From assembly GCF_020103725.1 (NCBI RefSeq), contig NZ_JAHXBG010000002.1, positions 310,001 through 374,000 on the forward strand: a stretch of DNA of 64,000 bases. The letters are read 5' to 3'. The notes beneath the pieces are model-generated. The model was not told the DNA's origin, did not search any database, and saw only the letters and a list, made by a program, of their open reading frames with translations. The translations under genes and the position numbers were made by a program. Shown one piece after another: positions 24,586-40,007 of the stretch; position 1 is the stretch's first letter; each line of letters opens with the position of its first letter. The stretch comes from Hyalangium gracile (GTDB taxonomy: Bacteria > Myxococcota > Myxococcia > Myxococcales > Myxococcaceae).

Positions 24586-26388
24586 CTACTGGACGCCGTC
24601 GAAGGTGGCCACGCTGTCGTTGGTGAGCCCCGAGGCGTTCGCCTCGTCGGTGTCCACGTGCATGTCCAGGGCGTACTGCTCGTTGACCCGGACGATCACG
24701 TCTCCGAAGACGGTCTCGCGCTCGCCCTCGACGCGGATGCGGATGACGCTCTTGTCCCCCACGCCGAAGCGGCGCGCGTCGTCCGGGTGCATGTGCACGT
24801 GGCGATGCGCCAGGATGACGCCATGGTCGATGGCCACCGTGCCCTTCGGGCCGCGCAGCGTCAGGCCGGGCGTGCCCTCGAGCTTGCCGGACTCACGCAG
24901 CGGCGGGTTCACTCCCAGGGTGATCGCGTCCGTGCGGGCCACCTCGACCTGGGTCTCCTTGCGCAGCGGGTTGATGATCGCCACGCGCTCGATCTCTCCC
25001 TTGGGCCCGACCAGGTCCACCGTCTCGCGGCACACGTACTGGCCGGGCTGTGACACCGGGCGGCGCTCGGTGAGCTCATAGCCCTCGCCGAAGAGCGCGG
25101 CGCAGTGCTCCTTGGACAGGTGCACGTGGCGCACGCTGACGCCTACCGGGATGGCATGGCCGGTGACGCGCTGCCGCGCCGCCGTGGGCCCCGCCGTCAC
25201 CCGCACGACCTCGCGGGCGATCATCCGCTCCTCGTCCGTGGCGACGACCAGCACCCGGGTCGGCGCGCGCGGAGAGGCGATGTCCACCACGCCGCCCGAG
25301 CCGCGCGCGTCGCAGTGCTGGTTCTTGTCGGCATCCACCACCACCCCCATGTAGACGAGGGCGTCACACACCGCCGAGCGCACCTTGACGCTGTTCTCGC
25401 CGATGCCGCCGGTGAAGACGATGGCGTCCGCTCCGCCCAGCACCGCCGCGTACGCGCCGATGTACTTGCGGATGCGGTGGACGAACACCTCGATGGCCAG
25501 GCGGGCGCGGGCGTTGCCTCCCGCGGCGGCCTGCTCCACGTCACGGAAGTCCGAGGAGACGCCAGAGATGCCGAGCAGGCCCGACTTCCGGTTCAGCGCC
25601 TCGTCGATGGCGTCCGGAGACAGCCCCTGCCGCCCGAGCACGATGGAGAGCGCCGGGTCCACATCGCCCGAGCGCGTGCCCATCACCAGCCCCTCGAGCG
25701 GCGTCATGCCCATCGAGGTGTCCACCGAGCGGCCGCCGTCGATGGCGCTCACCGACGCGCCGCCGCCCAGGTGGCAGGTGATGAGCTTCAGCCGGGAGAG
25801 GTCCGTCTTGAGGAACTCGGAGGCGCTGGCCGCCATGAACTGGTGGCTCGGGCCGTGGAAGCCGTACCGGCGCACGCCGCGCTCGAGGTACAGCTCATAC
25901 GGCACCGCGTAGAGGTAGGAGTGCGGCGGCAGCTCGCCGTGGAAGGCCGTGTCGAAGACCGCGACGTGGACGGCGTTCGGGAGCGCGGCCTGCGCCGCCT
26001 CGATGCCCGCCAGGTTGGCCGGGTTGTGGATGGGCGCGAACTGCGCGCACGTCGAGATGATCTCCTTCACCTCGGGGGTGATGACGCACGGGCGCACGAG
26101 CTTCTCGCCGCCGTGCACCACCCGGTGGCCCACCGCGCGCAGCTCGGAGAGATCCTTGAGCGCGCCGCCCGGGCTCGTCAGCCGGGCGAGCACCGCGTCG
26201 AGCCCCGCGCGCATCGTGGGCGCGGGGATCTCCGCCTCCGATCGGGTCGGGCCGACCCGCCACCTGTGGAGCGCATGAGGCGAGCCGACCCGCTCGACGA
26301 CGCCACCAGCGAGGATCTCCTCGGTGTCCATCTCATACAGCTGGTACTTGATAGAGGTGCTGCCGACGTTGATGACGAGGACTTTCAT
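24586..26388 (-). CDS. ackA: acetate kinase fused to PduL-type phosphotransacylase
   Basis: A 600-residue two-domain enzyme. Residues 1 to about 395 are acetate kinase: VLVINVGSTSIKYQL, HRVVHGGEK, FDTAFH, RRYGFHGPSHQF, CHLGGGASV and GIGENS. Residues about 405-600 are a PduL-type phosphate acyltransferase with its zinc-binding histidines in VSVRHVHLS and AHRHVHMHPDD. PduL converts acyl-CoA to acyl phosphate and acetate kinase then makes ATP and the free acid. The fusion would thus couple acetyl-CoA (or propionyl-CoA) to ATP in one polypeptide through acetyl phosphate. No Pta gene is adjacent. It converges with the tRNA-like transcript and its terminator. Confidence 0.95.
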   Translation of the reverse strand: MKVLVINVGSTSIKYQLYEMDTEEILAGGVVERVGSPHALHRWRVGPTRSEAEIPAPTMRAGLDAVLARLTSPGGALKDLSELRAVGHRVVHGGEKLVRPCVITPEVKEIISTCAQFAPIHNPANLAGIEAAQAALPNAVHVAVFDTAFHGELPPHSYLYAVPYELYLERGVRRYGFHGPSHQFMAASASEFLKTDLSRLKLITCHLGGGASVSAIDGGRSVDTSMGMTPLEGLVMGTRSGDVDPALSIVLGRQGLSPDAIDEALNRKSGLLGISGVSSDFRDVEQAAAGGNARARLAIEVFVHRIRKYIGAYAAVLGGADAIVFTGGIGENSVKVRSAVCDALVYMGVVVDADKNQHCDARGSGGVVDIASPRAPTRVLVVATDEERMIAREVVRVTAGPTAARQRVTGHAIPVGVSVRHVHLSKEHCAALFGEGYELTERRPVSQPGQYVCRETVDLVGPKGEIERVAIINPLRKETQVEVARTDAITLGVNPPLRESGKLEGTPGLTLRGPKGTVAIDHGVILAHRHVHMHPDDARRFGVGDKSVIRIRVEGERETVFGDVIVRVNEQYALDMHVDTDEANASGLTNDSVATFDGVQ

Positions 26389-27058: not shown

Positions 27059-28531
27059 TCAGCGAGACTGCCGGCGCTTGTGGACGGCCGTCGCGACGCG
27101 GGCGCCGTACTCCTCGTCGGCGTTGCGGAAGTGGGAGACGCAGCGAGCGATGATGTCCTCGCGGCTCACCTGCGAGAGGCTGCCCGCGATGTTCGCCACG
27201 AGCCGCTCGCGCTCCGCCTCGCTCATCACCCGGTACAGGGCGCCGGCCTGCACGAAGTCGTTGTCCTCGGCGTGGCGCACGGGGATGTAGGTACCGGAGA
27301 CGCCCGAGACGGAGACGCCCAGGCCCGAGCTCTCGTTCGTCTGCACGGGGCCGTCGAAGCTGTTCGGCTCGTAGTTGCGGCTCCGGCCTCCGTTGCCGTC
27401 GAAGCGCATGGCGCCGTCACGGCCGTAGTTGCGCGCGCCGCCCGGAACGCCCTTGGGCGAGTTCACCGGCAGGCGCGTCCCGTTGATGCCCAGCCGGTAG
27501 CGCTGCGCGTCTCCGTAAGCGAAGAGGCGCGCCTGCAGCATGCGGTCCGGCGAGGGGCCGATGCCCGGGACGAAGTTGGCGGGATCCATCGCCGCCTGCT
27601 CCACCTCGGCGAAGTAGTTGTCCGGAGCCCGGTCCAGCACCATCCGACCCACCTCGATGAGCGGGTAGTCCTTGTAGGGCCACACCTTGGTGAGATCGAA
27701 CGGGTTGAAGCGGTAGTTCTGCGCGTCGGCCTCGGGCATCACCTGCACCTTGAGCGTCCACGAGGGGAACTCGCCGCGCTGGATCGCCCCGTACAGGTCC
27801 CGCTGGTGGTACTGCGGATCGCGTCCGCCGATCGCCTCGGCCTCCTCGGAGGTGAGGTTGCGGATGCCCTGGTGGGTCTTGAAGTGGAACTTCACCCAGA
27901 AGCGCTCACCCGCCGCGTTCACCCACTGGAAGGTGTGCGAGCCGAACCCGTCCATATGACGCAGCGTGGCGGGGATGCCCCGGTCTCCGAAGAGCCAGGT
28001 GAACTGGTGCGTGGCCTCGGGCGAGTACGAGAAGAAGTCCCAGACGTTGTCGGGCTCCTGGCAGTTGGTGAAAGGGTCGTACTTCTGCGAGTGGATGAAG
28101 TCCGGGAACTTGATGCCGTCACGCAGGAAGAAGATGGGCGTGCTGTTGCCCACCACGTCCCAGTTGCCGTCCTCGGTGTAGAAGCGGACCGCGAAGCCGC
28201 GTGGATCCCTCGCGGTGTCGGGCGCGCCCCGGGAGCCGGCCACGGTGGAGAAGCGCACGAAGACCTCGGTGCGCTTGCCCTCCTGGCTGAAGAGCTTCAT
28301 GCGCGTCCAGCGCGCCACGTCCGGGTTCGTCACCTCGAAGTGGCCGTAGGCGCCAGAGCCCACCGCGTGCACCACGCGCTCGGGGATGCGCTCCCGGTTG
28401 AAGCGAGCCAGCTTCTCGATGAGGTGGTGGTCCTGCAACAGCACCGGCCCCGTGGGGCCGGCCGTCTGCGAGTGCTGGTTGTCGGCGACGGGTGCGCCGG
28501 CTTCGGTGGTGAGATGGGAACGCGTGGTCAA
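27059..28531 (-). CDS. monofunctional haem catalase (small-subunit type)
   Basis: Decomposes hydrogen peroxide. The TTG at 28531 with GAGGAG 8 bases upstream gives 490 residues, the size of clade 3 catalases; the frame is open further upstream but without family similarity. Distal His is in [10 protein letters not shown] (H55), distal Asn in DVVGNSTP (about N129), and the haem-ligating Tyr is in [14 protein letters not shown]. There is no signal peptide, so it is cytoplasmic. The upstream region holds an OxyR-like motif. Next to it an ankyrin gene follows, and a divergent di-haem peroxidase operon shares the regulatory region. Confidence 0.96.
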
Positions 28532-28612
28532 GCGGCCTGCTCCTCGTGGGTGGGTGACGCCACGAAAAGTAGAGAGGGCGCGCTGATTTGCCCAAGACAT
28601 CGTTCCGATGAC

Positions 28613-28635
28613 GCTGATAGCACGCGACTATCAGC
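28613..28635. promoter_or_regulatory. OxyR-like operator between catalase and peroxidase operons
   Basis: A perfect 8-base inverted repeat (GCTGATAG 28613-28620, CTATCAGC 28628-28635, 7-base spacer) contains ATAG-N7-CTAT, the core of the OxyR binding motif. A third partial quarter-site (CGAT for CTAT, 28606-28609) has the right spacing. It lies in the 156-base gap between the divergent catalase and cytochrome c peroxidase genes. Confidence 0.65.
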
Positions 28636-28687
28636 ACCCCTCCACGGAATAAATCGCGCGAAGGGAGTTCATTTTCATGAGGTGACC

Positions 28688-29941
<1,254 letters not shown>

Positions 29942-29942
29942 C

Positions 29943-31064
29943 ATGCGCAAAGGCGTGAAGAGCATCGAGACGAAGCACTACGAAGAGCGCGACTCCTTCT
30001 TCGACGGGCTGCGGCGCATGGACCGCCGGGGCTTCATGCGGCTGGCGGGCCTGTCCGCCGGCATCGCCGCCGCCAAGGGGCTGGTGACGCCGCAGAGCTT
30101 CCAGCTCATCAGCGTCGCGGAGGCGGCCCCGAGCGCCAGGCCGAAGTTCTCCTTCGCGTACATCTCGGACTCGCACCTGTACAAGAAGGAGCTCAACGAC
30201 CGGTTCGTGCGCTCGCTGGTGCGCGCGGTGGATGATGTCAACCGCCTGGATCCCCAGCCGGACTTCGTCCTCTACGGCGGCGACCTGGCGCAGCTCGGCC
30301 AGAAGGAGGAGCTGGATCTCGGCAAGCAGATCCTCAAGAGCCTCAAGGCGCCGGTGAAGATGATGGTCGGGGAGCACGACTGGTTCCTCGACATGGGCGA
30401 GCACTGGCGCGCGCTGTTCGGCGAGCCGCAGTACTCGTTCGATCACAAGGGCGTCCACTTCGTCACGCTGATGAGCGTGAACGAGAAGGACTTCTGGACC
30501 GCGCGTGGCATGACGCCCATGGAGCGCATGCAGACGGTGGCCGGCCTGGACAACGGCCTCCAGTCGCGCTTCGAGGTCGGCCAGCCCGGCCGCGAGTGGC
30601 TCAAGGCGGACCTGGCCAAGGTGGACAAGAACACGCCCATCGTCGTGTTCAGCCACTCGCCGCTCTACAAGTACTACAAGCCGTGGAACTTCTGGACGGA
30701 CGACGCCGACGACGTCCAGGCGCTGCTCAAGCCGTTCAAGAACGTCACGGTCATCCACGGCCACACGCACCAGATGCTCTCGAACCAGATCGGGAACATC
30801 TCCTTCCACGGCATGCTGTCCACGGCGTGGCCCTGGCCCTACGCGCCCGAGGGGCTGCCGTCGCTCACCGTCCCGATGAACCGCCCGGACCCGTTCAGCA
30901 ACTTCGACGGCTGCGGCGACGGCCGCATGGACGTGCTCGAGGGCGGGCTCGTCGACAAGCTCTACAACCTGTGGGACCGCGATCCCGTCACCGTGAAGGC
31001 CACGTACCTGGCCAGCAACGGCAAGCAGGATCGTCCGCCCTCTTCTCGGCTCCCCCCCTACTAG
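29943..31064 (+). CDS. Tat-exported calcineurin-like metallophosphoesterase
   Basis: Begins 1 base after the peroxidase stop and encodes 373 residues. A twin-arginine signal (MDRRGFMRLAG, R28-R29) precedes a hydrophobic stretch, so a folded protein is exported. Metallophosphoesterase motifs occur in order: SDSHL, GGDLAQ, GEHD (where GNHD is usual), FSHSPL and GHTHQ. The exchange of Asn for Glu in GNHD may alter metal binding. The C-terminus is Pro/Ser-rich. Membership in a peroxide/cytochrome operon is unusual for a phosphoesterase; the substrate is unknown. Confidence 0.9.
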   Translation: MRKGVKSIETKHYEERDSFFDGLRRMDRRGFMRLAGLSAGIAAAKGLVTPQSFQLISVAEAAPSARPKFSFAYISDSHLYKKELNDRFVRSLVRAVDDVNRLDPQPDFVLYGGDLAQLGQKEELDLGKQILKSLKAPVKMMVGEHDWFLDMGEHWRALFGEPQYSFDHKGVHFVTLMSVNEKDFWTARGMTPMERMQTVAGLDNGLQSRFEVGQPGREWLKADLAKVDKNTPIVVFSHSPLYKYYKPWNFWTDDADDVQALLKPFKNVTVIHGHTHQMLSNQIGNISFHGMLSTAWPWPYAPEGLPSLTVPMNRPDPFSNFDGCGDGRMDVLEGGLVDKLYNLWDRDPVTVKATYLASNGKQDRPPSSRLPPY

Positions 31065-31076
31065 GACCTGGCGATC

Positions 31077-31853
31077 ATGCACGTGCGAAAGACTCTCAGC
31101 CTCGCGGCGCTCGGACTCGGGATCGGCTTCGGTGGCCTCTCCACCTGGCAGACGGCCTTCGCCGAGACCCCCGCCCAACCCAAGCACAACGTCCCCCGCT
31201 CGAAGGACGGCGACGTCGTCATCGCCCTGTGTGACGGCGAGACGACTCTCGAGGTGGACGGCGTCAAGGATCCCTCCGCCATCTCCCGCAAGCAGGCCCA
31301 GGACATCTCCGACCAGCTGATGCTGCAGTGGCGCAAGAAGAACCCGGACGCCAACTGGGATCCCCCGGGCCAGCTCGTCGCCCAGGCCAACCCGCCCACG
31401 CCTCCCGCCGCGGCCAACGCCCCGGTGAAGAAGGAGGGCGTGACGGCCTCCTCGAACCCCGACCAGGCGGCCCGCCGCGCTGCTTCCAACACCCAGGACG
31501 GCCACACCTACGGCGCCTTCAGCGCCCGCGACGAGGCCATCTGGAAGGAGTCCACCGAGCAGGCCGTGCGCGAGGGACACAAGGTGTTCCACGACGCCAA
31601 GACGCTCGGCAGCACCGTGGCCATCTCCTGCGACATGTGCCACCCGGACGCCTCGAACACGCACCCGGAGACGTACCCGAAGTACCAGGTGCAACTGGGC
31701 CGTGTCGCCCTGCTCCGCGATATGATCAACTGGTGCATCGAGAACCCGGTGCGCGGCAAGCCGCTGGCCGAGGACGATCCGCGGATGAAGCAGATGGAGG
31801 CCTACATCATGGCCCAGCGCAAGGGCGTGAAGATGGAGTACGGCAAGCACTGA
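31077..31853 (+). CDS. periplasmic mono-haem cytochrome c
   Basis: 258 residues with a signal peptide (KTLSLAALGLGIGFGGL, cleavage near AFAETP). One haem-c site CDMCH lies at C185-H189. The C-terminal part (LGRVALLRDMINWCIENPVRG, then MKQMEAYIMAQRKG) resembles the SoxA/TsdA-like cytochromes, where a nearby Cys can serve as second ligand (here NWCIEN). The N-terminal half is Pro/Ala-rich and less conserved. It starts 12 bases after the phosphoesterase stop and may pass electrons to the di-haem peroxidase (inference). Confidence 0.88.
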   Translation: MHVRKTLSLAALGLGIGFGGLSTWQTAFAETPAQPKHNVPRSKDGDVVIALCDGETTLEVDGVKDPSAISRKQAQDISDQLMLQWRKKNPDANWDPPGQLVAQANPPTPPAAANAPVKKEGVTASSNPDQAARRAASNTQDGHTYGAFSARDEAIWKESTEQAVREGHKVFHDAKTLGSTVAISCDMCHPDASNTHPETYPKYQVQLGRVALLRDMINWCIENPVRGKPLAEDDPRMKQMEAYIMAQRKGVKMEYGKH

Positions 31854-31874: not shown

Positions 31875-32435
31875 ATGTGGAGACGACGGCCCCAGCCCAC
31901 GCGGGATCCCGCGTTCGATCGTGAAGCGCTCGGCCACCTGGCCGCGCTCCATGACACGGCCTTGCGTCTGTGCGGTGACGCGGCGGAGGCGCAGGACCTC
32001 ACGCACGACACGTACGTGAGGGCGCTCAACGCCGCGGACCGCTTCGAGCCGGGCACCTCGCTCAAGGCGTGGCTGCTGACCATCCTGCACAACCTCTTCC
32101 GCACGCGGCTGAGGGACAAGGGCCGCCACGCCGAGCTCGAGCTGGACGATGGGTCGGCGGAGGTGGCTGTTGCGCCCACTGGCGAGGAGGTGTGGCACGC
32201 CGTCACGAGCGCTCAGCTCGACTCGGCGATGGAATTGTTGCCACCGAAACTCCGCGAGGCGGTGGTGCTGCGCGATCTCCAGGGTCTGTCGTACAAGGAG
32301 ATCTCGCAGGTGCTCGACCTGCCTGTCGGAACCGTGATGTCACGCCTCCACCGGGGCCGGGAGGCGCTGAAGGCGAGCCTGGTGCCTCTGATGCAGGGCG
32401 AGAGCGTCCCGGCGCACAAGCGAGATGTGAGATGA
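31875..32435 (+). CDS. ECF-type RNA polymerase sigma factor
   Basis: 186 residues with sigma region 2 (DAAEAQDLTHDTYVRAL, SLKAWLLTILHNLF) and region 4 (LPPKLREAVVLRDLQGLSYKE, then GTVMSRLHRGREAL). The gene follows the cytochrome c by 21 bases and overlaps the anti-sigma gene by four (ATGA), so it belongs to the redox operon. It probably directs transcription of this and related stress genes when released from the haem-motif anti-sigma factor. Confidence 0.95.
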   Translation: MWRRRPQPTRDPAFDREALGHLAALHDTALRLCGDAAEAQDLTHDTYVRALNAADRFEPGTSLKAWLLTILHNLFRTRLRDKGRHAELELDDGSAEVAVAPTGEEVWHAVTSAQLDSAMELLPPKLREAVVLRDLQGLSYKEISQVLDLPVGTVMSRLHRGREALKASLVPLMQGESVPAHKRDVR

Positions 32436-33247
32436 CGGTGTCCTGTGACAGCGTGCGGAACTGGCTGTCGGCCTGGATCGACGGCGAGCGCACCCCGCTC
32501 TCGTCGGAGGATTTCGAGCGCCACCTCGCGGAGTGCGCGGACTGCGACAAGGCGGCGCGCACGCTGCGTGGGTTCCTCCGCACGGTGGCCTCCGCCTACG
32601 TGCCCGCGGCGGTCCCCAGCTCCCTGGAGGCCTCCGTCCGCGGCGTGGCCCGGCGGCGCTCGGCCCTGAGGCGGTTCGCTCCGGTGATCGCGGCCATGAG
32701 TGCCGCCGCGGCCGTGGCGCTGGTGGTCTTCACCCTGCTCCGCCCGGCGCCGGTGCAGGCGGCCTCGCTGGCGGAGGCGGCGGCCTGGGCGCACGAGGGC
32801 CTGGCCTCCGGTGTCCTCCCGCTGGACGTGGAGGGCGGCAACGCGACCGAGCTGTCCCGGTGGCTCACGGAGCGCGTGGGCTTCCAGGTGGTGCTCCCGA
32901 AGCTGGAGGACTCGACGCTCGAGTTCCACGGCGGCCGGCTGGTACCGCTGGAGGGTGCCTACGCCGCCGTCGTGAGCTTCGAGCGCAACGGAGAGCCGGT
33001 GAGCCTGGGCATCGCGCCCCGGCACGCGGAGGGCAACCTGGCGGACGCTCCGCGCACGGAGCTGTTCCGGAACATGAAGTTCTCCACGCGCACCGTCCGC
33101 GGCCTGAGCGTCATCAGCTGGAGCGAGGGCTCGCTGAGCTACGCGCTGGTGTCTCGCGTCCCGGCCACCGGGCGCGCTTCCTGCGCGGTGTGCCACGGGG
33201 CGAAGTCGGGCCTCAAGAGCGTGGACGAGTTCCACGGGATGCGGTGA
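32432..33247 (+). CDS. transmembrane anti-sigma factor with C-terminal haem-c motif
   Basis: 271 residues. The N-terminal zinc-finger anti-sigma domain has a putzif-type pattern (HLAECADCDKAART). One membrane helix (FAPVIAAMSAAAAVALVVFTLL) puts the C-terminal half in the periplasm. That half ends with CAVCHG (C251-H255), a canonical c-type haem attachment site, and a further His in EFHGMR that could be the second ligand. I know no characterised anti-sigma factor with covalent haem; the arrangement suggests direct sensing of peroxide, redox state or a gas ligand. Its upstream partners are the cognate sigma factor, cytochrome c and peroxidase. Confidence 0.9.
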   Translation: MTVSCDSVRNWLSAWIDGERTPLSSEDFERHLAECADCDKAARTLRGFLRTVASAYVPAAVPSSLEASVRGVARRRSALRRFAPVIAAMSAAAAVALVVFTLLRPAPVQAASLAEAAAWAHEGLASGVLPLDVEGGNATELSRWLTERVGFQVVLPKLEDSTLEFHGGRLVPLEGAYAAVVSFERNGEPVSLGIAPRHAEGNLADAPRTELFRNMKFSTRTVRGLSVISWSEGSLSYALVSRVPATGRASCAVCHGAKSGLKSVDEFHGMR

Positions 33248-33276: not shown

Positions 33277-36200
33277 TCAGTCGTCCGGCAGCTCGATCCG
33301 CGATGAGGTGACGTACCGAGTGCGCTCCCGCGCCGTGAGCTCCTTGCGTCCAGGCAGCGCCTCCACGCAGCCCGCCAGCGTCTCGAAGTCGACGGGGTGC
33401 AGGCGCAGCTTCGCATCACGGCCCATGGCCGCCACCCACTTCCCGTCCTCGGTGAAGGCTCCCCAGAGGAGCCGGGTGGTCTCGGAGTCCAGCACGGCCG
33501 ACGTCACCCACTCCTCGCCCGCGGGCCGCCAGAGGTGCGCGCGGCCCACGTCATCCGCGGAGAACAGCGTCGTGCCATCGGAGCTCCAGGAGAGGTGATC
33601 GATGGGATGGCGCCGATGCTGCCCGCTGGCGATGAGATCGTCCCCATTGGTGTCCCAGAGCGCCACCGCGCCGCTCTCGTCGCCCGTGGCGAGCAGCGCC
33701 CCGGTCGGATTCCACGCGAGGTGCTTGATCGGATACCAGTGCTGAAGGGTCAGCACCGGCCCTCCCTCGGAGGGCCCGTCGGCGCCCACGCTGTAGAGCC
33801 GGACGCGTGAGTCGTTGCACGCGACGGCGAGCACGTCCCCTCGCGGGTTCCACGCGAGGTTCCACGTCCCGTCCGACTCCTCGCCTCCCAGGAAGGTCTG
33901 CCCGTCCTCCTGCTCGGGATTCCACAACATCACCGAGCCGCCCCACGCCACCCAGCGGCCCAGCGCCAGGCGCTTGCCGGAGGGATGCCACGCGATCTGG
34001 GTGGGCAGCAGCCCATGCGGCATGTGCTCCGCGATGAGCTTCCAGGTCTTCGCATCCCAGATGGACAGGCGGCCCTCTTCCCGCAGCGCCACGCGGGAGC
34101 CGTCCGGGCTCCAGTGGACGTAGACGTTCTCGAACCAGCCTTCCTCCCACTTCTTCGGGAGCGGCTCGCCCGGGCTCCAGGGCCTCAGCTCCCAGCGCTT
34201 GCTCGAAGGGTTCCGCACAGGGAGCGCGGCCTGCCGCAGCTGGGGATGGAAGACGCCCCAGATGAGGCGCCCCTCCGCGGGCAGCGGCAGCTTCACGCCC
34301 TGCGCCGGCCAGTGGAAGTCTTCCGGGCTCTTGCCGTGAGGCTTCCGGGCGGTGAACTCCTTCCAGGAGCACCGCACGGGCCCTCCCTCCGTGGGAGCCC
34401 ACACGCGCGTGCTCCCGTCGACGCTGGCGGTGGCGACGTGCTTCCCATCCGGGCTCCAGCCCGCCTGGAGGATGAGGCCGGAGTGTCCCCCGAGCCACGC
34501 GAGCTGCCGGCTGCTGGCGATGTCCCAGACGCAGGCCGCATCCCCGCCCCAGGTCAGCGCCAGCTCCGGCTGCTTCGGGTTGGGAAGGATCTGCTGCATC
34601 GCCCCCTCTCCCTCCACGCGAAGCACCGTCATCAACCGCCCCAAGGCGTCCCAGACGTGCAGCTCGCCCCGGTCGGGCAGCGTGCCCAGCAGCTGGCCGT
34701 TCCGGGTCCACGCCACCTGGCCAACGCCCAGCCCGTGCGTCTCGAGCACGAGCGGCTCGGAGCCCGCGCCCGGGCGGAGGATGCGCGCCCCCTGCGTCCC
34801 ACCCACCAGCAGCGCGCTCGCGTCCGGGCTCCAGGCGAGCACCCTCGCCCCTGGGAACGGGAAGCTTTGGAGCTTCTCCAGGCCCGCCTTGCCGACCTTC
34901 CAGACGTGGACCTCGTCACGGCCCACCGTGGCGAAGCGCAGTCCCGCAGGCTCCGGCGCCCAGGCCGCCTTCTCGACGTGGCCGACCCCTTCGAGCCCCG
35001 CCGCCATCCCATACTGGGACGCCTTCTTCCCCAAGGGGAACGCCGCCGCGGAGCGGTTCTCCTCCGGGCCATACGTATGGCCGGCCGCGAGCAGATGCGC
35101 GCCCGTCGGAGAGAACGCGAGCCCCCACTGATCCCACGTCCCCACGCTCCCGTGGTTCCGCGGGGTGAGCCCTTCGGGCGAGGTCTCCCAGAGGATGAGG
35201 CCGGAGTCGCTCCCGCTGCTGGCCAGCAGGCGCCCATCCGGGGACCACGCCAGGTGGCTGACCTGGGGATCGCTCCCTCCGGGATGGGCATCGACGGTGC
35301 AGAGCGGCTCCTGCCGCGTCACGTCGTACAGCACCAGCGAGCCGTCCTTGTACCCCACCGCGATGCGCTGGCCCTCCAGGCTCCAGGCGAGCGCCGTCGC
35401 GGCGACCTTGGAGTCGAAGCGGCGCACCAGCAGGCCCCGGTGATCGAGCACCGCTCTCAGGAGCCGATCCGTCTCGCTGGAGCGATCGAGCCGCGCGATC
35501 TCCAGCGCGAGCAGCCGCAGAAGCTCGGGATCGCCCTTGCCTCGCAGGCGCTCGAGCTCCAGCTGCAGCCGGCGGACCTGGGCATCCACCAGGGCCTTGC
35601 GCAGCACATCCTTGCGCTCGCGCAGGGCGTTATCGAGCCAGATGGCATACGCCGCCTCCACCTCCGCGGTCTCCACCTGCTCCAGCGACACGCGGCTGGC
35701 GGCGCCCTTGAACCCCTCCATGACCCTGCCCGCGGAGGTCAGCGTGGAGGACTGGGGCACACCCGCGGCGATGAGGTGCTCGAGGGCGAGCCGGGCCCGC
35801 GCCTGCGCCTCCTCCCGCGTTCCCGCCGTGGCGACGACCTGGAACGAGGTGATGTCCTTGCGCTGCTGGAGGAAGTCCACGAGCTCGGCGAGCACGGTGC
35901 GCTGGCACAGGGGCTCGATCCCGGTCTCCGTGAAGAACACCAGCTCGTTCAGGTCGACGCGGCGCTGCTCCTCGCGCCACTGCACGAGCGAGACGGGGTT
36001 GTTCAGGCGCGAGCGCCACAGCGCCCGCACCTCGAGCAGGGCCTGGCCGAGCTCGAGGCTGTCCTCGGCCTCGTCGACGATCTCGCGAGCCCGGTCGAGG
36101 CCGAACATGGTGGCGGAGTTGTACTTGGGGCTGTAGACGACCACCTGATCCGCCTGGGAGATCTGGGACTCGCCAGCCGCGCGGCCGATCAGCGTGAGCA

Positions 36201-38505
36201 TCCGGAAGGAGTCCTCCACGCGCAGCCGAGGATCCACCTGGTTCCAGAAGGAGCGCATCAGCGGGAAGCGCGAGAAGCGGCGACCGCGAGGCCTCAGCCG
36301 GGGGATCGGGTTGGAGGCGATGAGCAGGTCCGCGCCCTCGGCCCGGAGGACGTTCACCGGCACGTTGGCCACGAAGCCGCCGTCCAGCAGGCGCCGGTTG
36401 CCCAGGAGCGTGGGGCCCATGACGGGCGGGAAGGAGCCGCTGGCGCGGATGCCATAGCCGATGGTGCCCTGGCGCACGTCCCACTCCACGCCCGCATCCG
36501 AGTCCACCACGACGGGGAACAGGGGCACCTCGAGCTGGTCCAGCTTCACCGGGCCGAGGATGGCATCCAGCCACCACTGGACGCCCAGGCTCGACACGAC
36601 GGCGAGCGGGAAGGCGGCGGCCACCAGGGGCCAGTAGGTCTGCATCAGCTCCAGCCCTCGGGTGCCGGCGGCGCTGTAGAAGGCGCCCACCACCGTGCCG
36701 AAGCTGGAGCCGGACACCATGTCCACGGGGATGCGCTGCGAGGGGTCCACCTGCGTGCCGTGCTCGCCCTTCGTGATGGAGCCCTCGAGCATCCGCGCCA
36801 GCAGGGCCAGGTGCACGTAGCCGAAGGCGCCTCCACCGCCGAGCGCCAGGCCGATGCGGCGGTCGGTGACGGCCCGCGCCCAGCGATCGAACGTCTCGCG
36901 CAGCTCCGGCTGCTCGTCCGACAGCTCGCCCATGGGGCCCACGCCCTCGTTCCAGTCGGCTGGGAAGCGGACGCGGGCGGTGCCCATGGGCCAGGTGGGC
37001 CGCTGCTCGACGGGCCGCATCAGCTGGCCCAGGTGGCTGCGCATGGCCCTGGCCATCTCTCGCGCGCTCGCGGCGACCTGCCGGGCCGCCTTCACCCGCT
37101 CCGCGATGGAGCGTCGGCGCGTCACCTCGCGAAGAGACGTCCCGAGCCCCACGGGAACCTCGGGAGAGAGGATGCCCGTCGGGACGAGCTGCACCCGATC
37201 CGGCAGGGTGTTGGTGGGGGGAAAGCCCTCGGGTGCGCTGGCCAGGTACACCAGCTTGAGCGGCTCGTCGGGCCAGGGGGCCAGCTCCTGGGCGAGGATG
37301 TCGAGCACCTGCCTGCGCTCCGACGCCGGGAGCTCCGACACATCCACCAGCGTCACGTTGGTGCTCCCGGCGAGCCTGTCTCCCGCCCGTCTCCAGGCGA
37401 AGGCCTCGGGCCGCGGCAGCAGCCGTGAGCCCTGGGACTCGCCAGGGGACACCAGCGGACGGGAGAGCTCGGCCACCCAGCCATTCACGGTCCCCGTGGG
37501 CCGCCGGAAGCTCGGAGGCTCCCGGAGATCCACCTCCCTCTTCGTGACGCGAAGCACGAGCACGTGCTCCTGGAGGTGCACGGCGAGCCGCTCCGCGAGG
37601 CGCTCGCCCAGCAGCCGCAGCGCGAGCGGCTCCCGGCTGTCGAGCACGAGGATCTGGTGGGCCGCTGGCGGCGCCGGTGGCGGTGACAGCTCGGGGTTGC
37701 CCCGGTAGACGGAGCGTCGGAAGTCCGGATCCTTCTGGAGGAGCTGCCGGAAGTGCGTGCCGTCGATGCGGACGACGACGGTGCGCGAGCCCTTCCTGTC
37801 CAGCACCGCATCGCCCGCCATGGGCTTGCCCAGCAGGTAGTGCTTGTGCCCGATGGCCGCGGAGCCTCGCAGCACCGCGAGGCACTCTCCGGAGCGCAGG
37901 ATCTGGCAGGTGCCCGAGAGCAGCAGGTAGAAGTCGGTGGGCACCCTGCCCCGCTGCATCAGCGTCTGGGCGTCCCCGTCCACGACGGAGGCGCTCTCGA
38001 CGAGCCGGAAGAGGAACTGCCCGGGGACGTTCGCGAACCGAGGCTCCTCTCCCAGCGCGAGGACGATGTCCTCCGCCAGCAGCCCGGCCCGGTGCACCCG
38101 GCCCAGCCACTCCAGGAGGGGCCGCGGCACCTTGCCGAAGTCCCGCTCGCGCAGCTCGAGGAATTGCGTGGGAGCCACCACGAGCGCCGCGGAGCTTCCC
38201 GCCGGAGCGCGGGGATCGAGCCACCTGGCCACGGCCTCCAGGCCGTGAACACTGCCCATGCCGAGGTCCTGCGCGTTCCCGGGCAGCAGCCGCCCCTGCC
38301 GCCGCACCTGCACGAGGCCCGAGACGAGGAAGCGCACCGCGGGCGCGCGGGTCTCCAGCGCGGTGCCCGCCTCGACGTCGGACGGCACCAGCCGCTCCGC
38401 GAGCGCCTGGAGCGCGGCCTCGCTGCCCTGCTCCCGAAGAAAGCCCGCCAGCGCCGGCGCGGCCTTGAGGACATCCACCTTCCCCGCCACATCGAACAGC
38501 GACAT
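33277..38505 (-). CDS. giant NTE-like patatin phospholipase with cNMP-binding and WD40 domains
   Basis: 1742 residues without a signal peptide. Residues about 20-270 hold two cyclic-nucleotide-binding-like domains (TDFYLLLSGTCQILRSG). Residues about 545-790 are a patatin/neuropathy-target-esterase domain: oxyanion GGGGAFG, nucleophile GSSFG (Ser near 600) and catalytic Asp in LLDGGFVANVP (near 707). Around 855-935 is an OmpA-like or related alpha/beta domain (VFFTETGIEPL). From about 1025 to the end is a long WD40 array of roughly a dozen repeats (LAWSPDGRLLASSGSD). NTE-type enzymes hydrolyse lysophospholipids. Linking such an enzyme to cNMP domains and a propeller suggests a regulated, scaffolded lipase. 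The gene is monocistronic, divergent from a small lipoprotein. Confidence 0.93.
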   Translation of the reverse strand: MSLFDVAGKVDVLKAAPALAGFLREQGSEAALQALAERLVPSDVEAGTALETRAPAVRFLVSGLVQVRRQGRLLPGNAQDLGMGSVHGLEAVARWLDPRAPAGSSAALVVAPTQFLELRERDFGKVPRPLLEWLGRVHRAGLLAEDIVLALGEEPRFANVPGQFLFRLVESASVVDGDAQTLMQRGRVPTDFYLLLSGTCQILRSGECLAVLRGSAAIGHKHYLLGKPMAGDAVLDRKGSRTVVVRIDGTHFRQLLQKDPDFRRSVYRGNPELSPPPAPPAAHQILVLDSREPLALRLLGERLAERLAVHLQEHVLVLRVTKREVDLREPPSFRRPTGTVNGWVAELSRPLVSPGESQGSRLLPRPEAFAWRRAGDRLAGSTNVTLVDVSELPASERRQVLDILAQELAPWPDEPLKLVYLASAPEGFPPTNTLPDRVQLVPTGILSPEVPVGLGTSLREVTRRRSIAERVKAARQVAASAREMARAMRSHLGQLMRPVEQRPTWPMGTARVRFPADWNEGVGPMGELSDEQPELRETFDRWARAVTDRRIGLALGGGGAFGYVHLALLARMLEGSITKGEHGTQVDPSQRIPVDMVSGSSFGTVVGAFYSAAGTRGLELMQTYWPLVAAAFPLAVVSSLGVQWWLDAILGPVKLDQLEVPLFPVVVDSDAGVEWDVRQGTIGYGIRASGSFPPVMGPTLLGNRRLLDGGFVANVPVNVLRAEGADLLIASNPIPRLRPRGRRFSRFPLMRSFWNQVDPRLRVEDSFRMLTLIGRAAGESQISQADQVVVYSPKYNSATMFGLDRAREIVDEAEDSLELGQALLEVRALWRSRLNNPVSLVQWREEQRRVDLNELVFFTETGIEPLCQRTVLAELVDFLQQRKDITSFQVVATAGTREEAQARARLALEHLIAAGVPQSSTLTSAGRVMEGFKGAASRVSLEQVETAEVEAAYAIWLDNALRERKDVLRKALVDAQVRRLQLELERLRGKGDPELLRLLALEIARLDRSSETDRLLRAVLDHRGLLVRRFDSKVAATALAWSLEGQRIAVGYKDGSLVLYDVTRQEPLCTVDAHPGGSDPQVSHLAWSPDGRLLASSGSDSGLILWETSPEGLTPRNHGSVGTWDQWGLAFSPTGAHLLAAGHTYGPEENRSAAAFPLGKKASQYGMAAGLEGVGHVEKAAWAPEPAGLRFATVGRDEVHVWKVGKAGLEKLQSFPFPGARVLAWSPDASALLVGGTQGARILRPGAGSEPLVLETHGLGVGQVAWTRNGQLLGTLPDRGELHVWDALGRLMTVLRVEGEGAMQQILPNPKQPELALTWGGDAACVWDIASSRQLAWLGGHSGLILQAGWSPDGKHVATASVDGSTRVWAPTEGGPVRCSWKEFTARKPHGKSPEDFHWPAQGVKLPLPAEGRLIWGVFHPQLRQAALPVRNPSSKRWELRPWSPGEPLPKKWEEGWFENVYVHWSPDGSRVALREEGRLSIWDAKTWKLIAEHMPHGLLPTQIAWHPSGKRLALGRWVAWGGSVMLWNPEQEDGQTFLGGEESDGTWNLAWNPRGDVLAVACNDSRVRLYSVGADGPSEGGPVLTLQHWYPIKHLAWNPTGALLATGDESGAVALWDTNGDDLIASGQHRRHPIDHLSWSSDGTTLFSADDVGRAHLWRPAGEEWVTSAVLDSETTRLLWGAFTEDGKWVAAMGRDAKLRLHPVDFETLAGCVEALPGRKELTARERTRYVTSSRIELPDD

Positions 38506-39085: not shown

Positions 39086-39913
39086 TCAGGCGGCGGGCGA
39101 GCCGAAGCGCGCTCGGAAGGTCCGCAGGTTGGGCCCGTCGCCAGCGCGCTCGTAGACGGCGAACACCACCCGGTCGAAGGCTCCGGGCAGCGCGCTCAGC
39201 GCCGCGGCGAAGGCGTCGGCCGCGTCCGTGGGATCGTTGCCGAACGCGCCGCAGCCCCACGCTCCGAGCACGAGGGTACGGTGGCCCCGCTCCGCGGCGA
39301 CCCGCAGCACCTTGAGCGCCCGGGAATGCAGCACCTCTCGGATGCGAGGCCGAAGGCCGGGCTCCCTGCGGAGGAGCTGGCCCGCGTTCGGCGCTGGAGC
39401 GGTGACGATGGAGACGTGGAAGGGTCGCTCCAGAAACCGCAGCTTCTCATCCCGGAAGAAGGGCACGCGCGGCGAGTAGATGAGGTGATCCGTATACAGG
39501 AGCGACCGCTCCTCCCGGTTCACCGTGTAGTAGTCCGGCTGGGTGATGAGGCAGGTGTAGAGCGCCGAGCACCGAGCGAGATCCTCCTCCTGGGCCTTCG
39601 CTCCGCGGAGGAAGCCGCCCCCTGGGTTGCGCGCGGAGGCGAAGTTGAGCGCGAGCACGTCCTCCACGCCCTCCTTCTCGATGAGCCTGCGGCTCGCATG
39701 TCCCGTCTTCTCGGAGGTCACCTCGACGCGCAAGGCACTCCCCGTGGAAGCAGGGGGCGCCAGCCGCTCGAAGTCCGAAGGCCGGTAGAGGACGGTGCCT
39801 GACACCGCGTGCTCCACCGACTCCTTCAGGGAGACCGTCCGCCCCGAGGGGGCCACGTACTCTCCCTGTTCCACGATGCGTACCGTCTCCTGCGCGACTC
39901 CCGCCATCGACAT
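39086..39913 (-). CDS. TIGR02452-type poly(ADP-ribose) glycohydrolase-like protein
   Basis: The start ATG 39913 has AAGGGA about 8 bases upstream (275 residues). The microbial PARG signature is clear: NFASARNPGGGFLRGA followed by QEEDL, i.e. GGG...QEE with the two acidic residues that hydrolyse the ADP-ribose linkage. LYTDHLIYSPRVPFFR and LGAWGCGAFGNDP also match the macrodomain-like PARG fold. It probably removes ADP-ribose from proteins or nucleic acids. No ADP-ribosyltransferase gene is adjacent, so the substrate is unclear; housekeeping turnover or defence against an exogenous transferase are both possible. Confidence 0.93.
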   Translation of the reverse strand: MSMAGVAQETVRIVEQGEYVAPSGRTVSLKESVEHAVSGTVLYRPSDFERLAPPASTGSALRVEVTSEKTGHASRRLIEKEGVEDVLALNFASARNPGGGFLRGAKAQEEDLARCSALYTCLITQPDYYTVNREERSLLYTDHLIYSPRVPFFRDEKLRFLERPFHVSIVTAPAPNAGQLLRREPGLRPRIREVLHSRALKVLRVAAERGHRTLVLGAWGCGAFGNDPTDAADAFAAALSALPGAFDRVVFAVYERAGDGPNLRTFRARFGSPAA

Positions 39914-40007
39914 GACTGCGTCCCTTCTGGATGACACCCCGCGAGCACGTCCCGCGAGGGCTTGGTGTCACCTCAACACGAAGGTTCGCATCCGCCCCTG
40001 ACGGCAA

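Follow-up and report, generated by a model that had tools for sequence, protein, structure and literature searches.

A myxobacterial anti-sigma factor with a conserved C-terminal tail that may attach haem c

For many ECF systems it is not settled how the transmembrane anti-sigma factor detects its signal in the periplasm. A 64,000-nucleotide stretch of the Hyalangium gracile genome (contig NZ_JAHXBG010000002.1, positions 310,001 to 374,000; hereafter the window) raises the question of whether such a protein could carry its own sensor in the form of covalently bound haem c. The gene concerned lies on the plus strand at 32432–33247. Its ORF translation, Pfam matches and an alignment of its orthologues describe a transmembrane anti-sigma factor of 271 residues with a C-terminal haem-c tail. 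If the tail works as a sensor, the redox state of a periplasmic haem would be handed straight to RNA polymerase by one protein. Covalent haem would also give a signal readable by spectroscopy and removable by a single residue change, and the expected output of that signal is one operon with one promoter. In a few myxobacteria, the cell may read envelope redox or peroxide conditions directly via a haem tail.

The anti-sigma protein and its haem motif

The N-terminal end of the protein is that of a zinc-binding anti-sigma factor. A zf-HC2 domain (PF13490) covers residues 5–38 (32444–32545, plus strand; E 1.1e-9, 38.6 bits against a cut-off of 22.2), and its motif H31-x3-C35-x2-C38 has H31, C35 and C38 invariant in four orthologues. 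The gene overlaps the plus-strand ECF sigma factor gene at 31875–32435 (regions 2 and 4; PF04542 and PF08281) by 4 nt (ATGA), an overlap that the first-pass annotation had already claimed. A domain above the curated cut-off, the HxxxCxxC spacing and an ECF-paired gene together assign the predicted protein to the zf-HC2 anti-sigma factors. The RsrA-type (mycothiol) model TIGR03988 reached 22.2 bits against the 62.5 required, over residues 4–70 only. A Pfam scan of the whole protein at E up to 1 returned zf-HC2 only, with no DUF3365/Cache and no FecR match.

Hydropathy predicts one transmembrane stretch at about residues 81–108, with an arginine-rich segment (R74–R81) on its N side. Because this segment lies N-terminal of the transmembrane stretch, the C-terminus is read as periplasmic; hydropathy and the positive-inside reading thus predict a cytoplasmic zinc domain and a periplasmic haem motif. 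The earlier placement of CAVCHG at C251–H255, separate from the zinc motif at residues 5–38, proved exact on translation: C251-A-V-C254-H255, followed by G256, is encoded at 33182–33196 on the plus strand. The protein has five cysteines (C5, C35, C38, C251 and C254), and only C251 and C254 fall in the periplasmic domain. An AlphaFold model from three sequences was poor (mean pLDDT 42).

Haem loading demands little of the substrate. System I needs little beyond CXXCH, and 12-residue CXXCH peptides were haemylated (PMC3601427); short CXXCH peptides are also substrates of the bacterial System II synthase, which requires both thiols and the histidine (PMC8112865). The host genome encodes CcmE (E 4.4e-23), a single marker gene for the System I pathway. 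The two features expected of a c-type haem site are therefore predicted here, namely a periplasm-exposed CXXCH and, as judged by CcmE, cytochrome c maturation in the host. We consider it very probable that the tail carries covalent haem.

Conservation and possible origin of the tail

The tail is confined to a small group of orthologues. A family search of 96 genomes, in which up to 26 first-look candidates per genome were scored, gave five matches at E 1e-20: four orthologues, each in its own genome (4/96), and a CXXCH-less homologue in G017. Within the searched genomes, the orthologue set numbers four including the window protein, three of them close. The other members are 83 and 81% (both same genus; genomes G006 and G002) and 55% (another genus; G173) identical to the window protein. 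CXXCH is present in all four and absent from the 46 other distinct readable homologues among 54 homologous loci read, a count that leaves out one misread (L131) and one short (L133) locus and takes L089/L022 as one place and L138/L008 as another. The host genome itself offers a similar comparison: one of the 28 zf-HC2 ORFs listed has CXXCH, the window anti-sigma ORF, and the other 27 are without it (150 of 333 first-look candidates scored, long ORFs covered to about 530 residues).

The rest of the protein is widely shared. A profile of the four orthologues matched at least 158 of 195 Myxococcota genomes (up to 13 first-look candidates per genome scored); among the matches listed, only the four orthologues run past residue 247 through the tail. 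The broad myxobacterial homologues align over about residues 4–243 of the window protein, and many CXXCH-less ones have a VSDLDExDIxxLL-like end, probably a helix, in place of the haem-c tail. Several single-sequence alignments extend beyond residue 247, to 249–260; the reading of these took in L014, L018 and L021, all without CXXCH, and left out G057:C88, G052 and G053. The window protein thus shares with RsiW-like and broad myxobacterial zf-HC2 anti-sigma factors the N-terminal zinc domain, single transmembrane helix, periplasmic C-terminal domain and ECF-overlapping gene, and differs from them in its haem-c tail. Coverage beyond Myxococcota comprised near-exact tail patterns and one plasmid search, which would miss independently evolved haem anti-sigma factors. 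The patterns, scanned in genome contigs, matched 97 stretches, of which two were relatives. The plasmid protein search gave 13 records; two were read, both Skermanella proteins, and neither has CXXCH.

Within the orthologues, the tail is the best conserved part of its surroundings. Residues 244–271 (PATGRASCAVCHGAKSGLKSVDEFHGMR; 33161–33244, plus strand) contain 21 invariant columns of 28, against 18 in the best non-overlapping 28-column block and a mean of 12 (hypergeometric P 0.0024). The consensus common to the window protein and the three other orthologues is GRASCAVCHGxxSGLxxV[D/E]EFHGxR. A CXXCH arose in 96 of 300,000 shuffles of residues 104–271; judged by such counts, the motif is not chance. 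In three same-genus pairs, pN/pS was 0.04–0.09 in the tail and 0.29–0.32 in residues 105–240, uncorrected values from small counts (1–2 non-synonymous against 7–8 synonymous differences in the tail). Against the other-genus orthologue the values, again uncorrected and from small counts, were 0.29–0.35 and 0.48–0.63, respectively. The first-pass annotation had proposed a haem-c attachment site on the anti-sigma factor, and the conservation, low pN/pS and host CcmE support it well: the tail reads as a real, selected attachment site.

A second haem ligand may lie in the same tail. H268 (33233–33235, plus strand) is invariant in 4/4 orthologues and, in an MtrC/MtrF-like cytochrome, corresponds in the alignment to the His that follows the final CXXCH read; besides H255 and H268, only H121 is an invariant periplasmic His. 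H268 is probably the distal ligand, with H121 as the alternative candidate.

Where might the tail have come from? Searched alone against Pfam at E up to 10, it matched only MtrC/MtrF domain II/IV, at profile positions 153–175 of 176 and below significance (E 0.05 and 0.06 for two orthologues). The anti-sigma protein scores 13.6 bits against the 30 required for PF22113 (MtrC/MtrF), through the tail only, and NCBIfam gave RoxB at E 0.04–0.06 on the tail. In a separate 45-residue search of 59 genomes, the first match after the three same-genus orthologues was an MtrC/MtrF-like protein from a related genome (E 0.02), with 8 CXXCH in the 536 residues read and a PF22113 match at E 1.9e-31. The tail aligns with CASCHGVKGAHSVDKVH at the end of this 8-CXXCH stretch, CHGAKSGLKSVDEFH lying opposite CHGVKG-AHSVDKVH. 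Third in the same search was a near-identical MtrC/MtrF-like stretch in a same-genus genome (E 0.07). Two other stretches score comparably: in G023 a 33-residue ORF with CAVCHS (E 0.06), and in G024 an ORF that has CXXCH twice (E 0.09).

These weak matches, none significant alone, together suggest a captured haem segment and H268 as the likely second ligand. The tail resembles the last haem segment of the MtrC/MtrF multihaem cytochromes, at scores below the significance cut-offs, and unlike them the window protein has one CXXCH only, on an anti-sigma factor. Tentatively, and as something possible rather than probable, we propose that the last haem module of a multihaem cytochrome, CXXCH with its downstream His, was acquired by the anti-sigma factor and replaced the C-terminal end usual in such proteins, turning it into a redox or peroxide sensor made of one protein. 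The operon's own peroxidase was also considered as the donor and set aside: its second haem loop (SPLFSDQKFHNIG) is a weaker match, with a shuffle fraction of 0.03 against 0.004 and 0.0007 for the multihaem comparison, the last two values being optimistic because that comparison was picked from the match list.

The operon, its cassette and its promoter

The anti-sigma gene ends a five-gene operon on the plus strand, in the order CCP, Tat metallophosphoesterase, cytochrome c, ECF sigma factor and anti-sigma factor. CCP (28688–29941) is a MauG/MbnH-like di-haem peroxidase family protein by Pfam, with a signal peptide and two CXXCH (CATCH and CNSCH); with the ORF given from 28661, Pfam CCP_MauG matches at E 1.5e-58, and TIGR03791 and TIGR04039 fall below cut-off. 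It is followed by a metallophosphoesterase (29943–31064; Pfam Metallophos, E 4.9e-16) whose sequence reads as having a Tat-like signal (DRRGFM). The cytochrome c gene (31077–31853) encodes a SoxA/TsdA cytochrome c domain (PF21342, E 7.7e-11) with CDMCH. The first-pass annotation was right about the peroxidase, the cytochrome c and the terminal position of the anti-sigma gene, and left out the metallophosphoesterase between the first two.

The first three genes travel well beyond the regulatory pair. Phosphoesterase matches at E 1e-40 or better occur in 58 of 193 Myxococcota genomes, and at a looser E of 1e-5 it also matches plasmids, with 110 records that include Methylocystis and rhizobia. 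We compared 20 genome stretches and three plasmid records (23 in all) with the window genes by BLAST. All three cassette genes (CCP, phosphoesterase and cytochrome) were matched in 19 of the 23. The others were L078, L079 and the Sinorhizobium record, where CCP was unmatched, and the M. bryophila record, where both CCP and the cytochrome were. Besides the window, ECF and anti-sigma matches were found in three of the 23 stretches, from the same genomes as the orthologues (G006, G002 and G173), and 16 have matches to all three cassette genes without an ECF/anti-sigma match. BLAST found no ECF match in any of the 20 phosphoesterase stretches without the anti-sigma gene. An operon of the same make-up whose anti-sigma homologue has no CXXCH had been named as evidence against the haem proposal; none was found, and all four operons with the ECF/anti-sigma pair have the motif. 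By sequence comparison, the pair is a lineage-specific add-on behind a wider envelope redox cassette, and the haem tail accompanies it in each of the four instances identified.

Other arrangements of the cassette were seen along the way. A rough look at the gene after the cytochrome in 18 pair-less stretches found none common to them. In G017, a large gene judged from its sequence to be PAS-type and sensor-kinase-like, without CXXCH, directly follows the cassette (L067:5973-9845). The host genome has a second CCP-metallophosphoesterase-cytochrome cassette without ECF/anti-sigma on contig C17 (L072), and the cassette phosphoesterase also recurs on alphaproteobacterial plasmids.

The operon with the pair has a predicted promoter of its own. 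The sequence GGAATAA-N11-GGAGTTC lies at 28646–28670 on the plus strand, 17 nt before the CCP start codon, and in an alignment of all four loci with the pair, the window's included, CACGGAATAA-N11-GGAGTTC is shared within otherwise diverged sequence. We take its GGAAT and GTTC, 16 nt apart, to be the −35 and −10 elements typical of ECF promoters. The exact pattern occurs once per genome in the four that have the pair and is absent from six that lack it (reversed control, 0/10). With up to 2 mismatches, 0.09 matches would be expected in the window. In 16 pair-less cassettes that contain CCP, the closest site within 900 nt around the CCP start differs from the pattern at 4–6 of 14 positions. Since the pattern was derived from the same four loci, what carries weight is that it is unique within genomes of 9.6–13.6 Mb and absent from pair-less cassettes. 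The simplest reading is that the promoter is the putative target of the operon's own ECF sigma factor, giving a sigma circuit that serves this operon alone and amplifies itself. A wider regulon was sought and rejected: allowing one mismatch added 2 sites in the four genomes and 6 in the reversed control, and because such sites are at background we claim no further target.

Sensing mechanism, alternatives and precedent

The operon context makes direct redox or peroxide sensing by the anti-sigma factor plausible. The proposed sequence of events is as follows: (i) the N-terminal zinc domain would hold the ECF sigma factor at the inner membrane, on a protein that spans the membrane once and whose periplasmic domain ends in the haem-c tail; (ii) Ccm would attach haem at C251 and C254, with H255 as the proximal ligand and probably H268 (or H121) as the distal one; (iii) haem oxidation or ligand state would shift through peroxide or through electron exchange with the operon's peroxidase and cytochrome; (iv) the altered periplasmic domain would free the sigma factor, which would fire the single GGAATAA-N11-GGAGTTC promoter and so raise the levels of peroxidase, phosphoesterase and cytochrome along with that of its regulator. 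We lean towards this account, in which a redox or peroxide change at the haem, perhaps via CCP and the cytochrome, releases the sigma factor and raises the operon; the direction of the response is inferred along with the signal.

Other uses of the tail can be envisaged. It could report the state of cytochrome c maturation (haem supply, Ccm or thiol reduction), as a minimal CXXCH tail would befit and as the three further CXXCH of the operon (two in CCP, one in the cytochrome) might call for; haem attachment competes with oxidation of the apocytochrome (PMC3420020). Holo and apo tails would then differ in stability or protease sensitivity, and the operon would be either expressed only when its haem sites can be filled or raised when maturation fails. 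Conservation beyond CXXCH (SGL, and EFHG with H268) suggests a formed haem site rather than a bare substrate, and we judge such a role, its means and its output all to be unlikely. The same breadth of conservation bears on a switch without haem, in which C251 and C254 would form a redox disulfide. They are the only cysteines of the periplasmic domain, but invariance extends to H255, G256 and much of the tail, which a CXXC switch would not need, and the host has a Ccm marker gene. This is the least probable of the readings considered.

If haem is bound, its signal could be a gas. By analogy, signalling-fused haem-c Cache domains behave as NO, not oxygen, sensors (PMC12889525), and the tail could bind NO (or CO or O2), perhaps displacing the distal His. 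However, the operon's five genes include no nitrogen-oxide gene, and an invariant candidate distal His speaks, if not strongly, against an open site, which makes gas sensing improbable. Equally doubtful is a tail that acts as a haem-carrying electron relay or docking element, with the sigma factor controlled by cytochrome or peroxidase contact rather than by haem state. The partner genes do sit in the same operon, yet they also occur without the anti-sigma factor in 16 of the 23 stretches.

The closest precedent for direct sensing through an acquired haem site comes from outside the sigma factors. In sCache_heme (DUF3365/Tll0287; GSU0582), an extracytoplasmic sensor seemingly captured a cytochrome-derived CXXCH fragment, which its authors describe as the first example, to their knowledge, of recruitment at the fragment level (PMC12889525). 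That fragment is an insertion between strands; the window protein instead has a C-terminal tail and an anti-sigma output, and 'anti-sigma' and 'sigma factor' are absent from the main text of the paper. HasI/HasS, a haem-responsive cell-surface signalling system, also pairs an ECF sigma factor with an anti-sigma factor in a haem context, with HasS signalled by the receptor HasR with the haemophore HasA (PMC11442138). The window protein differs from the FecR/HasS type: it has no FecR match, and there is no receptor gene among the operon's five. A term search of an ECF stress-response review (PMC8103513) found neither 'heme' nor 'cytochrome', and no haem-c anti-sigma factor appeared in the titles and abstract openings of the open-licence literature among the matches listed. 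If our reading is true, a sensor would have captured haem at the fragment level for a second time, independently, and, within the searches made, for the first time in a sigma/anti-sigma system. It would extend to a new regulator class the recent idea that sensors arise by acquiring a short cytochrome fragment.

The window holds further genes around the operon. A catalase gene (27059–28600) lies divergent from it, and between catalase and CCP, at 28613–28635, is a perfect inverted repeat, GCTGATAG-N7-CTATCAGC. The repeat includes ATAG-N7-CTAT, which occurs nowhere else in the window (0.03 expected) and looks like an OxyR site for the divergent catalase. A catalase beside the operon might suggest a peroxide regulon; we rejected this because the arrangement is not conserved, with no catalase match in the 2–3 kb that precede CCP at the three other loci with the pair. 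Three minus-strand ORFs complete these observations: a 600-residue acetate kinase fused to a phosphate propanoyltransferase of PduL type (24586–26388), a 1742-residue protein with a patatin-like phospholipase domain (residues 553–720) and WD40 repeats in its C-terminal half (33277–38505), and an ORF with a microbial-type PARG catalytic domain (39086–39937).
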